Below are positions 4,337-10,786 of a DNA stretch of 35,642 nt, one piece after another (positions within the stretch are counted from its first letter, which is position 1; each line of letters opens with the position of its first letter). Source of the stretch: Clostridiales bacterium (GTDB taxonomy: Bacteria > Bacillota > Clostridia > Oscillospirales > Oscillospiraceae); NCBI GenBank assembly GCA_014799505.1, contig JAAVHV010000004.1:34980-70621 (forward strand), read 5' to 3'. The notes below the pieces were generated by a model that searched no databases, was not told where the DNA came from, and saw only the letters and a list, made by a program, of their open reading frames with translations. The position numbers and the translations under genes are program-made.

Positions 4337-4360
4337 AGCACCGTGAACAACTGCATAACC

Positions 4361-4495
4361 CTTATCAAGAGTGGTGGAGGGACCGGCCCGATGAAACCAC
4401 GGCAACCTGCTTTGCAAGGTGCCAAATCCGGCGGAAACGCGAGATGAGGAAAGACCTGACCATCCAAGCCCCGCCGAATTCCGGCGGGGCTTTTT
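4361..4495 (+). promoter_or_regulatory. SAM-I (S-box) riboswitch with terminator
   Basis: The aptamer at about 4361-4448 carries the conserved SAM-I blocks in order: CTTATCAAGAG, GGTGGAGGGACCGGCCC, GATGAAACC, GGCAACC, AAGGTGCCAAATCC, and closing GAGATGAG, which pairs with CTTATC to form P1. The expression platform holds an intrinsic terminator: GCCCCGCCG (4468-4476), loop AATTC, CGGCGGGGC (4482-4490), then five T. By established S-box behaviour, bound S-adenosylmethionine stabilises the aptamer and causes termination, so metK is switched off when its product is plentiful. Confidence 0.96.
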
Positions 4496-4537: not shown

Positions 4538-5719
<1,182 letters not shown>

Positions 5720-7521: not shown

Positions 7522-8811
7522 CTACGTAAACTCGCTCCAGCGATATTTCCTCAGCACCCAGCCAAAGGCCAAACAGACAAGCACGCCGCACACGCCGATG
7601 ACGGCAAACAGCATGGCCGCGCCGGAGCCCTTTCCCGCGCCAAACAGGGATACCAGCGGGCTTCCCGCCCCCTGGGCCGCCATCAGCGGCTCGAAGACCC
7701 GGTCAGTCAGCGCCCCGCCCAGCAGGAAACCGATGGGAATGGTGAAAAATTGCAGGGTGTTCCGGCAGGCGTACACCCGCCCCTGCATCTCCAGCGGAAT
7801 GGTGGTGCGGAAGATCACGTCCATGTTGGCGTTCATCAGCGGGATGAACAGCCAGCCCAGCACCGCCCCCACGCACCAGGCCAGGGGTGAGCCGGTAAAT
7901 GCCAGGATGAAATTCTCCGTACTCATGGAGAACAGCAGGGCCAGGCAGATGGCCCGCACCCGGTTCTTCGGTGCGGGAAGAAACGTGACCAGCACGCTCC
8001 CCGCCAAGGTGGCAAGGCCCATGCAGGCGTTCACCATGCCCAGCGCCGTTTCGCCGCCGCTCTGCTTTGACAGCACCATGGCGGGCAGGGCGGCGTCATA
8101 GGTGGAGGCTACCAAGTTGATGGCGGCCAGGAACAGGATGAGGGTCAGGATCAGCGGGTTTCGCTTCAGCCAGCCCAACCCCTCTCCCGCTGCGGCAAGG
8201 AGCTTTTCCCGGGGCTTCTCCCCCCTCTCGGCCTCCGGGATGTCGATGAGCAGCCACAGCGTGAGAAAGGCGATTCCAAAGGTGGCCAAATCCACCGCAA
8301 TCACCCACCCCATGCCCGCGAAGGCAAACAGCGCCGTGGCAAGCACCGGGGTGAGGATGGAGTTCAGCGACTGGGAGAAAGACCGCAGGCCGCTGGTCTG
8401 CTGGTAGAGCTCCTTGGGAATGAGCAGGGTGGCCGCCACCTCCCCCGCGGGCTGCTGGACGGTGTTCATCAGGCCGTTGAGGGCGTTGAGCAGATACAGG
8501 TGCCAGGGCAGCAGGGCATCGGCGCGGATGAGAATCAGCACCGCCACCGTGCTGGCCGCCGCCAGCAGGTCGCACACCAGCATGGTGCGCTTTTTGTCCC
8601 AGCGGTCGCTGAGCGCCCCGGCGAACACGCTCATCACCACATAGGGGGCGTAGGAGCAGATGGACAGCAGGGCAGTTTGCAGGGCCGAGCCGGTGCGCAG
8701 ATACAGCCACAGCACCAGGGCATAGCTGGTCATGCCGCTGCCCAGGGCGGACAGGGTCTGGGTGCTCCAGAGCAGGAGATAGGGCTTGAGCTGAGTATAT
8801 TTTTTGTTCAT
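7522..8811 (-). CDS. MFS drug exporter (DHA3/Mef-like)
   Basis: A 429-residue major facilitator with 12 hydrophobic segments. The motif A loop between helices 2 and 3 is clear (GALSDRWDKKRTML), as is the N-terminal LLLWSTQTLSALGSGM typical of the DHA3 group that includes macrolide exporters. It would expel a drug or metabolite using the proton gradient. The start is ATG at 8811, nine bases after AAAGGAG; a longer frame to 8841 lacks its own site. The ribosome binding site is caught in a hairpin that can be opened by an alternative fold behind a 12-codon leader ORF, suggesting induction by a ribosome-targeting compound. The substrate is not deducible from the sequence. Confidence 0.88.
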   Translation of the reverse strand: MNKKYTQLKPYLLLWSTQTLSALGSGMTSYALVLWLYLRTGSALQTALLSICSYAPYVVMSVFAGALSDRWDKKRTMLVCDLLAAASTVAVLILIRADALLPWHLYLLNALNGLMNTVQQPAGEVAATLLIPKELYQQTSGLRSFSQSLNSILTPVLATALFAFAGMGWVIAVDLATFGIAFLTLWLLIDIPEAERGEKPREKLLAAAGEGLGWLKRNPLILTLILFLAAINLVASTYDAALPAMVLSKQSGGETALGMVNACMGLATLAGSVLVTFLPAPKNRVRAICLALLFSMSTENFILAFTGSPLAWCVGAVLGWLFIPLMNANMDVIFRTTIPLEMQGRVYACRNTLQFFTIPIGFLLGGALTDRVFEPLMAAQGAGSPLVSLFGAGKGSGAAMLFAVIGVCGVLVCLAFGWVLRKYRWSEFT

Positions 8812-8813
8812 TT

Positions 8814-8905
8814 GACTTTGCTCCTTTTGATTTTTTCTCAATCAAAGCGCAAAGTCTGAGGACTGGGGTCATCCTCCACGCGGCGTCCTCAAACTTCGCG
8901 TGGAG
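8814..8905 (-). promoter_or_regulatory. Translational attenuator of the MFS exporter
   Basis: Four segments on the minus strand can pair in two exclusive ways. Segment 1 (8897-8905) pairs with 1' (8874-8882) over 9 perfect bp. Segment 2 (8885-8899, GCGAAGTTTGAGGAC) pairs with segment 3 (8849-8863, GTCCTCAGACTTTGC) over 15 uninterrupted positions, two of them G-U. Segment 3 (8849-8856) also pairs with segment 4 (8814-8821, GCAAAGTC), closing a hairpin with an inner TTTGATT/AATCAAA stem that buries the ribosome binding site at 8821-8828. A ribosome halted on the leader would mask segment 1, free 2 to take 3, and expose the site. This is the erm/cat logic. Confidence 0.75.
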
Positions 8906-8927
8906 CGCAGGCAATGCAGAGCATCAT
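8889..8927 (-). CDS. 12-residue leader peptide (MMLCIACAPREV)
   Basis: A 12-codon ORF, ATG at 8927 to TGA at 8889-8891, with GGAAGG eight bases upstream. Codons 8-11 overlap segment 1 of the attenuator, and the stop lies in segment 2, as expected for a leader whose stalling ribosome rearranges the RNA. The peptide does not carry a stalling motif that I recognise. A 21-codon alternative in another frame (ATG at 8934) has its ribosome binding site too close. Confidence 0.65.
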   Translation of the reverse strand: MMLCIACAPREV

Positions 8928-8968
8928 ACTTCATACCTTCCTATATGTTTTTGCCTTGCGGCAGGGGC

Positions 8969-8997
8969 ATCATACCACAGCCCCGGCAAAAAAGCAA
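8969..8997 (-). promoter_or_regulatory. Promoter of the leader-MFS transcript
   Basis: Minus-strand TTGCTT (8992-8997), 17 bases, TATGAT (8969-8974). The -35 box overlaps the T-run of the preceding feoB terminator. Confidence 0.65.
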
Positions 8998-9025
8998 CCT
9001 CGGCAGGGAGCCCCCCCGCCGAGGT
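8988..9025 (-). terminator. feoB terminator
   Basis: Stem ACCTCGGC/GCCGAGGT (8997-9004 and 9018-9025) six bases downstream of the feoB stop, followed on the minus strand by TGCTTTTTT. Confidence 0.8.
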
Positions 9026-9031
9026 CATTTT

Positions 9032-10786
9032 TTACGCCAGCCCCAGAAGCCGGGCCGCAGTTGTCACACACAGGCACAGCCCCAGCCCCAGCGCCGTGGG
9101 CAGGGCGATGGCCAGCGCCGTCCACTTCACGCTGCCCGTCTCCTTGTAGACGGTCAGGCAGGTGGTGGAGCAGGGCCAGTGGAACAGAGAGAACAGCATG
9201 GTGCAAGCCGCCGTCAGCCAAGTCCAGCCGTGCTGGGCCAGAAGCTGGCCCAGGGCGGCGAGATTGTCGAACTCCACCAGGCTGCCGGTGGCCAGGTACG
9301 CCATGAGCATCACCGGCAATACGATCTCGTTGGCGGGCCAGCCCAGAATGAATGCCATCAAAATCACTCCGTCCAGCCCAAACAACCGGGCAAAGGGATC
9401 CAAAAAGCCGGTGCAGTGAGCCAGCAAGGAGGCGTCCCCCACGGTGACGTTGGCCATCAGCCAGATGATGACCCCTGCCGGGGCGGCCACCGCCACCGCC
9501 CGGCCCAGCACGAACAGGGTGCGATCCAGCACCGAGCGGACGACGACCTCTCCCACCCGTGGCTTACGGAACGGGGGCAGCTCCAGAGCGAAGGAGGAGG
9601 GCATACCCTTGAGTACCGTGGCGGACAGCAGCCGGGAGCAGGCCAGCGTCCCCGCCACTCCCAGCACCAACGTCCCCAGCAGAAGCGCCGCCCCCTCCAT
9701 CGAGGCCAGCAGTCCGCCCCGCCCGCCCACAAAGAATAGCGTGATGAGGGCAATGAGGGTGGGAAATTTGCCGTTACAGGGCACCAGGGACGAAGTCAGG
9801 ATGGCAATGAGCCGCTCCCGGGGGCTGTCGATAATGCGGCAGCCGGTAACGCCGCAGGCGTTACAGCCAATTGACATACACATTGTGAGACACTGTTTGC
9901 CACAGGCACGGCACTTTTGAAAGGCGTGATCCATGACAAAGGCCACCCGGGGCAGATAGCCCAGATCCTCCAGCAGGGTGAACAGGGGAAAGAAAATGGC
10001 CATGGGGGGCAGCATCACCGCCACCACCCAGGCGGTCACCCTATACACCCCGTCCAGCAGCACCCCGGACAGCCACGCCGGGGCGCTGGACAGCCAGCCC
10101 TCCAGCATCTCCCCGATCCAGGCAAACAGGGCGGTGAGCATGGCGGAGGGCACATTGGCCCCCGCCACCGTCAGCCACACCACCAGCCCAAACAGCAACA
10201 GCATGAGGGGGATGCCTGTGGATTTTGAGGTGAGCAGGCGATCCAGCCGCTGCTGGCGGCGCTGGCGATCCGCCTTTTCGCTGCGCACCACCTGGGCAGC
10301 ATACCGCTCCGCCAGGGTGACCCGCTCGCAGGGCGCCCGTTTGGGGGCGGCGGCGGCGTCCGCCTTGACAAGTCGGGCGATGGCGACTTTCAAATCAGTC
10401 AGCCCCTCCTGCCGTCCGGCGGCGGTGCCCACCACAGGCACCCCCAGCCGCTTTGACAGGGCGGGCAAATCAACTTTGATCCCCAGCCGCTCCGCCTCGT
10501 CCAACAGATTGACGCACACCAGCACATTACCCGTCAGCTCCAGCACCTGGAGCACTAAGATCAAATTGCGCTCCAGGCAGGTGGCGTCACACACCACCAC
10601 CACCCCGTCCGCCTGGCCGCTTTCAATGTAATCCCGGGCCACCGCCTCCTCCTGGGAGTGGGCCGCCAGCGAGTAAGTACCGGGCAGGTCAATGAGCTGG
10701 TACTCCTCCCCCTCAAACGTATACTGCCCCCGGGCGGTGGCCACCGTCTTACCAGCCCAGTTTCCTGTTGGTTGATATATTATTGG
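9032..10786 (-). pseudogene. feoB: feoB, ferrous iron transporter B, 5' end missing (split by prophage)
   Basis: The remaining frame of about 585 codons covers FeoB from the TGNWAGKTV stretch on: G3 DLPGTYSL, G4 NLLDEAE, a G5-like GTAAGRQEG, then the membrane domain with GCNACGVTGCRIIDSPRER and VPCNGKFPTL gate-like stretches and about eight helices. FeoB imports Fe2+ through the plasma membrane, driven or gated by its N-terminal G domain. Here the frame meets TAG at 10787-10789 about ten codons upstream of TGNW, and no P-loop (GNPNVGKST type) exists upstream in the window. The only sensible start, GTG at 10744, has no ribosome binding site. Phage late genes begin at once beyond the break. The piece is therefore probably not functional unless the element excises. 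Confidence 0.88.

Follow-up and report, generated by a model that had tools for sequence, protein, structure and literature searches.

How is the gene for a Mef-like MFS exporter in a gut Clostridia bacterium switched on? The gene and the RNA element ahead of it (8811–8941, minus strand) lie in a 35,642-nucleotide stretch of contig JAAVHV010000004.1, referred to here as the window. The initial annotation of this DNA proposed an erm-like translational attenuator. Conservation of the element, constraint on its leader and the modelled effect of ribosome position all support that proposal, the modelled effect being weak when the SD bases alone are used as the measure. It is very probable that the exporter is controlled by a translational attenuator that reads the position of the ribosome on a 12-codon leader. 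The best reading of the element is as part of a widespread, uncatalogued clostridial family of such ribosome-position attenuators, similar in working to those of ermC, cmlA and fexA. Its parts are as follows.

8992–8997, minus strand: possible −35 box TTGCTT, found by eye, 17 nt 5' of TATGAT
8969–8974, minus strand: possible −10 box TATGAT, found by eye
8936–8941, minus strand: leader ribosome binding site GGAAGG, read in the sequence; an SD is present in 79 of 81 loci
8889–8927, minus strand: leader ORF of 12 codons, MMLCIACAPREV, plus TGA; ATG at 8927, TGA at 8891–8889
8897–8905, minus strand: segment 1, CTCCACGCG, inside leader codons 8–11; from pairing and covariation
8885–8899, minus strand: segment 2, GCGAAGTTTGAGGAC, containing the leader stop codon; from pairing and covariation
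8874–8882, minus strand: segment 1', CGCGTGGAG, partner of segment 1; from pairing and covariation
8849–8863, minus strand: segment 3, GTCCTCAGACTTTGC, partner of segment 2 or 4; from pairing and covariation
8814–8821, minus strand: segment 4, GCAAAGTC, immediately behind the exporter SD; from pairing and covariation
8821–8826, minus strand: AAGGAG, the ribosome binding site of the exporter, unchanged at 61 of 61 loci in the alignment
7522–8811, minus strand: MFS exporter, 429 aa, TIGR00900/Mef-like, ATG at 8811; from Pfam and NCBIfam profile matches

The leader and its overlap with segment 1 are where the initial annotation had placed them. The candidate promoter boxes are weak, since a strict promoter scan of 8750–9100 found none.

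The exporter protein matches Pfam MFS_1 (E 3.9e-28) and, both under the curated cut-offs, TIGR00900 (4.5e-52) and Mef(A) (8e-30); the profile scan started at an upstream TTG, giving a 439 aa version. With a Mef(A) score of 104 bits against a cut-off of 675, the protein is related to mef(A) and not a member. A search of solved structures by sequence (E 0.001) gave no match. The gene is likely to encode a drug exporter.

Long exporter matches (59–95% identity) were found in five of 60 related genomes searched, besides the window's own genome. A wider contig search gave 576 exporter loci, of which the best 80 were kept. Upstream regions were examined in the window and 83 other loci (the best 80 of 576, plus L004–L006), and the element was present at 81 of these 84; none was found upstream of the exporter at the other three (L005, L039 and L042). 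Element-bearing exporters found later reach down to 37–43% identity (L147, L149, L186, L190 and L191). Three loci (L146, L198 and L199) have exporter and attenuator on contigs classed as viral in IMG/VR, a hint that the pair is mobile. Of two plasmid matches, H1 was without annotation, and H2 was rejected as plasmid-borne – it is surrounded by cell-wall and division genes and looks chromosomal.

The helices of the proposed four-segment switch are complete in the window: 9 of 9 pairs in 1:1', 15 of 15 continuous pairs in 2:3 with G-U counted, and 8 of 8 in 3:4, in which segment 4 pairs with the 3' half of segment 3 beside the exporter's AAGGAG. The RNA folds 4.5 standard deviations below dinucleotide shuffles, none of 200 being equally stable, which agrees with the initial view that the pairings are beyond chance. 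Two details of that view stand in part. The off fold was described as 1:1' with 3:4, and both helices can form in full, but the unconstrained minimum-energy fold consists of 2:3 and a 5-bp pairing of GCUCC in segment 1 with GGAGC at the exporter. Helix 3:4 was said to bury the exporter's ribosome site; it does adjoin AAGGAG, but most of the site, by eye, lies incompletely paired in a bulge next to the helix. Hiding of the site follows from its position and from the modelled cost of opening it, with the SD partly in the bulge. The CUCC of segment 1 (8905–8902, minus strand) is complementary to the exporter SD (8825–8821, minus strand), and the two are paired in the minimum-energy fold. This pairing may be secondary, since L073 and L102, by eye, keep 1:1' and weaken CUCC:SD.

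The three helices, with 2:3 exclusive of the other two, are backed by covariation. An alignment was made of 61 of the 81 cores (60 distinct rows); the 20 omitted mostly have longer inserts. Over the 60 distinct rows, 97.8% of cells were paired in 1:1', 97.9% in 2:3 and 99.4% in 3:4, and both sides had changed in 5 of 9, 6 of 15 and 5 of 8 pairs, respectively. The paired percentage and covariation score of all three helices were reached by 0 of 500 shuffles, as were the observed values of 13 of the 15 covariation measures; the exceptions were 'further pair types' in 1:1' (17 of 500) and in 3:4 (2 of 500). Slid partners, used as a control, were paired in 19–54%. Changes in 60 of the 61 aligned loci were also placed on a tree built from 80 exporter proteins, L006 having yielded none, and the same pairs changed recurrently: 10:26 (AU/GC) three times, 7:29 four times, 21:72 three times and 79:132 twelve times.

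The pairing, whose loss in relatives had been named at the outset as grounds to refute the attenuator, is preserved: 80 of the 81 loci keep at least 8 of 9 pairs in 1:1', 79 keep at least 13 of 15 in 2:3, and all 81 keep at least 7 of 8 in 3:4. When partners were exchanged at random among the 81 loci, the observed mean pairing was never reached in 2000 trials. Here and in the counts just given, segments 1' and 3 were placed at their best-pairing position, which favours the observed side. The covariation check suggested for segments 2, 3 and 4 gave compensatory changes in 2:3 and 3:4, some of them three-way: in L058, L066 and L068 segment 3 is altered and still pairs with both segment 2 (14 or 15 of 15) and segment 4 (8 of 8). 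These changes are telling, as one segment has to fit two partners in turn. In segments 1 and 1' the window carries CGCG in place of the TGCA of most loci, and its leader peptide therefore ends in APREV, not APCKV.

The stop codon of the leader, which the initial annotation had placed inside segment 2, is a TGA at the identical place in 81 of 81 loci. Outside this set, the leaders of L124 and L184 end in TAA. An SD match of at least four bases precedes a start codon in 79 of the 81 leaders (none in L031 and L041), and the consensus peptide is M-x-L-C-I-[AV]-x-A-P-C-K-V. Over codons −11 to −6, which lie outside segment 1, and in sequence pairs differing at one to seven bases, pN/pS was 0.54 in frame (742 pairs); the two remaining frames gave 1.44 (859 pairs) and 1.16 (1127 pairs). 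By this measure the leader frame is under amino-acid constraint.

The APCKV at the end of the leader is largely set by the RNA; the LCI[AV] at codons 3–6 is not. Those four residues are the best kept outside segment 1 and lie around the modelled stall site. They are not invariant, with C4 in only 50 of the 81 loci and I, A, T, M or E elsewhere, but LCI[AV] is all the same the likeliest candidate for a peptide signal. IFVI is the macrolide stall motif of ermC-type leaders. It had been reported missing from the window's peptide, and neither IFVI nor RLR was found as a string in the candidate leaders of the 81 loci; RLR is the stall motif of the mef(E)/mel leader MTASMRLR (PMC4335068). In a literature search, the string 'APCKV' was found only in two dengue papers.

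The effect of ribosome position was modelled by forcing a footprint of −15 to +15 around the first P-site base to be unpaired and computing the energy needed to open the exporter start region. Over the 81 loci, the median opening energy was 8.2 kcal/mol with no ribosome, 7.0 at codon 3, 4.8 at codon 4, 4.2 at codon 5, 8.6 at codon 6 and 11.2–12.5 at codons 7–13. Codon 4 or 5 gave the easiest opening in 74 of the 81 loci. The values for the window were 8.5 kcal/mol with no ribosome, 3.9 at codon 5 and 9.6–13.3 at codons 7–13. The median gain was 4.2 for real elements vs 1.6 for those with shuffled middles (three shuffles each), which had less to gain because of a lower starting cost (5.3 vs 8.2). 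The best codon shifts with the assumed edge of the footprint: 6 at +12, 5 at +14 and 4 at +18 (30 of the 81 loci).

A simpler measure, the unpaired probability averaged over just the SD bases, gave a weak peak: its median was 0.20 in the absence of a ribosome, rose to 0.41 with one at codon 4 and stood at about 0.32 for codons 5–13; in the window it rose to 0.43 at codon 6 and did not fall afterwards. It was judged a poor read-out, and the opening energies given above were computed after it. In the model, the switch stands out clearly only if opening of the entire start region is required: a ribosome near the leader end is predicted to close the exporter and one held at codon 4 or 5 to open it, while the bare RNA is predicted to be closed.

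The proposed mechanism would work as follows. In normal translation of the leader, ribosomes would run on to the final codons and to the stop within segment 2, and there block 2:3; segment 3 would then pair with 4 next to the ribosome site of the exporter, which would be off. Given the fixed stop codon within segment 2, normal termination would be a repressing event. With no ribosome the RNA would also be closed, through 1:1' and 3:4 or through the pairing of segment 1 with the SD. A drug-bound ribosome would stall with codon 4 or 5 (C4 or I5 of M-x-L-C-I-A) in the P site, where it would cover segment 1 and leave segment 2 free to pair with 3; formation of 2:3 would release segment 4 and the SD, and the exporter would be made and presumably remove the inducing drug. 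Position-dependent opening and the fixed leader stop together give a precise, testable stall site.

Related elements are found before genes other than exporters. A covariance model (R1, from A1), built on the 1:1' and 3:4 fold only, gave 27 matches in 25 of 391 class genomes: 19 before exporters of this family, 3 before genes of the CD3324 family, 2 before Cfr genes, 1 before a CatA-like acetyltransferase gene (L141, leader MKRGLDAAPCEA) and 2 that were rejected, one a repeat tract by eye (L140) and the other the element of the window read in antisense (L145). Taken by themselves, the non-exporter matches are weak (E 0.0003–0.009, rough values). Exact 1-2-1' patterns in the CARRG form matched in 4 of 58 and 2 of 398 genomes, and those in the CAARG form in 11 of 225 and 0 of 22 genomes, plus 4 viral contigs. 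All 21 pattern stretches precede genes of these kinds – 10 exporters, 6 Cfr, 4 CD3324 and 1 DUF4037 – with three of them (L151, L194 and L195) repeating loci of the R1 model.

Genes for the Cfr 23S rRNA methyltransferase follow a related element at L142, L143, L187, L189 and L192–L195, with the identity of Cfr confirmed by HMM in the first two and assigned by similarity in the others; the Cfr loci beyond the R1 model came from the pattern matches. A separate Cfr family search of 291 genomes at E 1e-120 gave 0 matches, and its control was likewise unmatched. An Lsa-like ABC-F gene lies just upstream at L142.

CD3324-family small proteins follow related elements at L138, L144, L150, L152, L154, L164, L178–L180, L196 and L197. 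A motif search found the element at 9 of 29 CD3324 loci examined, and it is thus not a general feature of this gene. The proteins are weakly Mor-activator-like, under the Pfam cut-off, and are possibly drug-triggered transcription activators of Clostridia. At L144 (2051–2920) a SpoU-type rRNA methyltransferase gene, with NshR/TsnR similarity below the cut-off, lies behind the CD3324 gene. A DUF4037 protein (L148, 430–1410) is preceded by a related element.

The leader frame was checked at 26 loci with a four-base SD required. Four of the 6 Cfr loci tried have leaders in a frame other than that of APCKV, and the other 2 (L143 and L193) have none passing. At 10 of 15 CD3324 loci, leaders occur only in the other frames; the remaining 5 (L150, L152, L155, L157 and L180) use the frame of APCKV as well, or mainly. 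The leaders of exporter L186 and of L148, the DUF4037 locus, are in a different frame from APCKV.

Folding was tested in 17 non-exporter elements (13 CD3324, 2 Cfr, 1 DUF4037 and 1 CAT-like). Against shuffles, 1:1' stood out in 15 of them, with at most 4 of 300 equally good, and 2:3 did so in 13. The weak cases are CD3324 loci L153 and L157 for 1:1' (equalled by 55 and 36 of 300 shuffles), L153, L155 and L157 for 2:3 (29, 25 and 18 of 300), and the CAT-like locus L141, in which 1:1' is clear and 2:3, taken as one 10-base helix, was matched by 275 of 300 shuffles; by eye this 2:3 splits in two. In 12 of the 17, opening is easiest with the P site at, or directly beside, an offset of −13 to −10 ahead of segment 1. 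These include both Cfr elements tested, with falls from 10.3 to 5.8 and from 9.9 to 4.2, and 10 of the 13 CD3324 elements, L153, L154 and L179 by at most 2 kcal/mol. Another ribosome position was equal or better for opening in L144, L164, L180, L148 and L141.

One RNA module, spread by descent or by capture, might sense early ribosome stalling in Clostridia whatever the leader frame, standing before exporters, Cfr, the acetyltransferase and CD3324/Mor-like putative transcription activators; this wider idea is less likely than not. If true, the placement before CD3324/Mor-like genes would make the element the trigger of a clostridial ribosome-stress regulon, with a role comparable to actinobacterial whiB7. 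Where one RNA core serves an exporter, putative regulators and Cfr, a multi-drug methyltransferase, contact with a single ribosome drug would be predicted to prime resistance to others.

Other explanations of the element differ in what they require of the leader. The closest is a variant of the attenuator and not an alternative to it: a general sensor of translation stress, in which any slowing or stalling of a ribosome early in the leader, by several drug classes, would open the exporter. In its N-terminal half the leader is highly variable (LCIA, LLIND, RRCVV, KRTVA, NCSD), with the RNA and the distance from stall site to segment 1 kept; the elements before Cfr, many of those before CD3324 and one before an MFS gene use another frame, and the opening minima of the non-exporter elements mostly hold their place all the same. 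The toiL leader of E. coli responds to several drug classes (PMC12121999). The general sensor is somewhat less likely than not. Against it, L-C-I-A/V persists at codons 3–6 through synonymous changes, which points to a stall that depends on the peptide, at least in the majority class. The common LCI at codons 3–5 could also point to amino-acid starvation, with ribosomes waiting at leader codons for Cys, Leu or Ile. This is very improbable: those residues are replaced in many loci, as at C4, the downstream genes are for exporters, Cfr, CAT-like, CD3324 and DUF4037 proteins with no amino-acid genes among them, and a ribosome waiting at the Cys of codon 10 would, in the model, mask segment 2 and so shut the exporter off.

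A leader peptide with a terminator controls mef(E)/mel (PMC4335068), and the exporter here is Mef-like, so attenuation of transcription has a precedent. It is very improbable, since the sole terminator-like site in a scan of 8750–9100 is a hairpin at 9027–8995, behind feoB, which sets the exporter apart from the upstream gene, and none lies between leader and exporter; helix 3:4 lies right against the SD and start codon, and inspection by eye shows no U-run. Control is most likely at the level of translation for this reason. A strongly conserved structure with alternative folds would also be expected of a ligand-binding riboswitch or a protein-bound leader, in which the short ORF would be incidental. 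An in-frame leader whose stop is fixed in all 81 loci, coding constraint in that frame only and the nearly universal leader SD make such an RNA highly unlikely, and it has no Rfam match. With gathering and loose thresholds, Rfam gave only weak, chance-like hits near the element in the window, scoring far under the gathering thresholds, and no match at the element in 7 exporter loci and 9 other loci. The only match in the window that passed is a SAM-I riboswitch at 4359–4450 (plus strand, 79.6 bits) before metK (4538–5719), an ordinary pairing. The translational attenuator remains the preferred reading, and 'erm-like' is an apt name for its manner of working, the RNA itself matching no Rfam family.

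No report of the element was found among the literature titles and abstract openings listed, a scope that does not prove its absence from print. With this element, gut and rumen Clostridia, in which the regulation of intrinsic resistance is, in our judgement, little studied, gain a sizeable family of putative ribosome-position switches that Rfam lacks. What seems new is the RNA, with its nested 1/2/1' layout, a leader stop that falls within segment 2, and repeated use ahead of unrelated resistance genes; the logic is the same as in systems already described.

CmlA and FexA are both MFS proteins with leader peptides, and the ermC attenuator follows a four-segment logic. Translational attenuators of export genes are already known: an RNA attenuator governs translation of the chloramphenicol export genes cmlA and fexA (PMC5418344, Table 1). 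The element would likewise be a translational RNA attenuator of an export gene, but the exporter here is Mef/TIGR00900-like. In ermC, a ribosome stalled on the leader alters the fold and exposes the ribosome binding site (PMC5418344), and the same refolding is proposed here; the element differs in that segment 2 lies between 1 and 1' and overlaps 1, the leader stop is within segment 2, the IFVI and RLR motifs are missing and the controlled gene is an exporter. The mef(E)/mel attenuator, with its leader MTASMRLR, controls a Mef-type MFS exporter through a leader peptide, as is proposed here, but it is transcriptional and has a terminator (PMC4335068), whereas the element has a different leader and no terminator between leader and gene. 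The uORF toiL of E. coli topAI, on which stalled ribosomes free a downstream start and which several drug classes induce (PMC12121999), would be a parallel in another host, with another target gene, for the proposed release of the exporter start by ribosomes stalled on a short upstream ORF.
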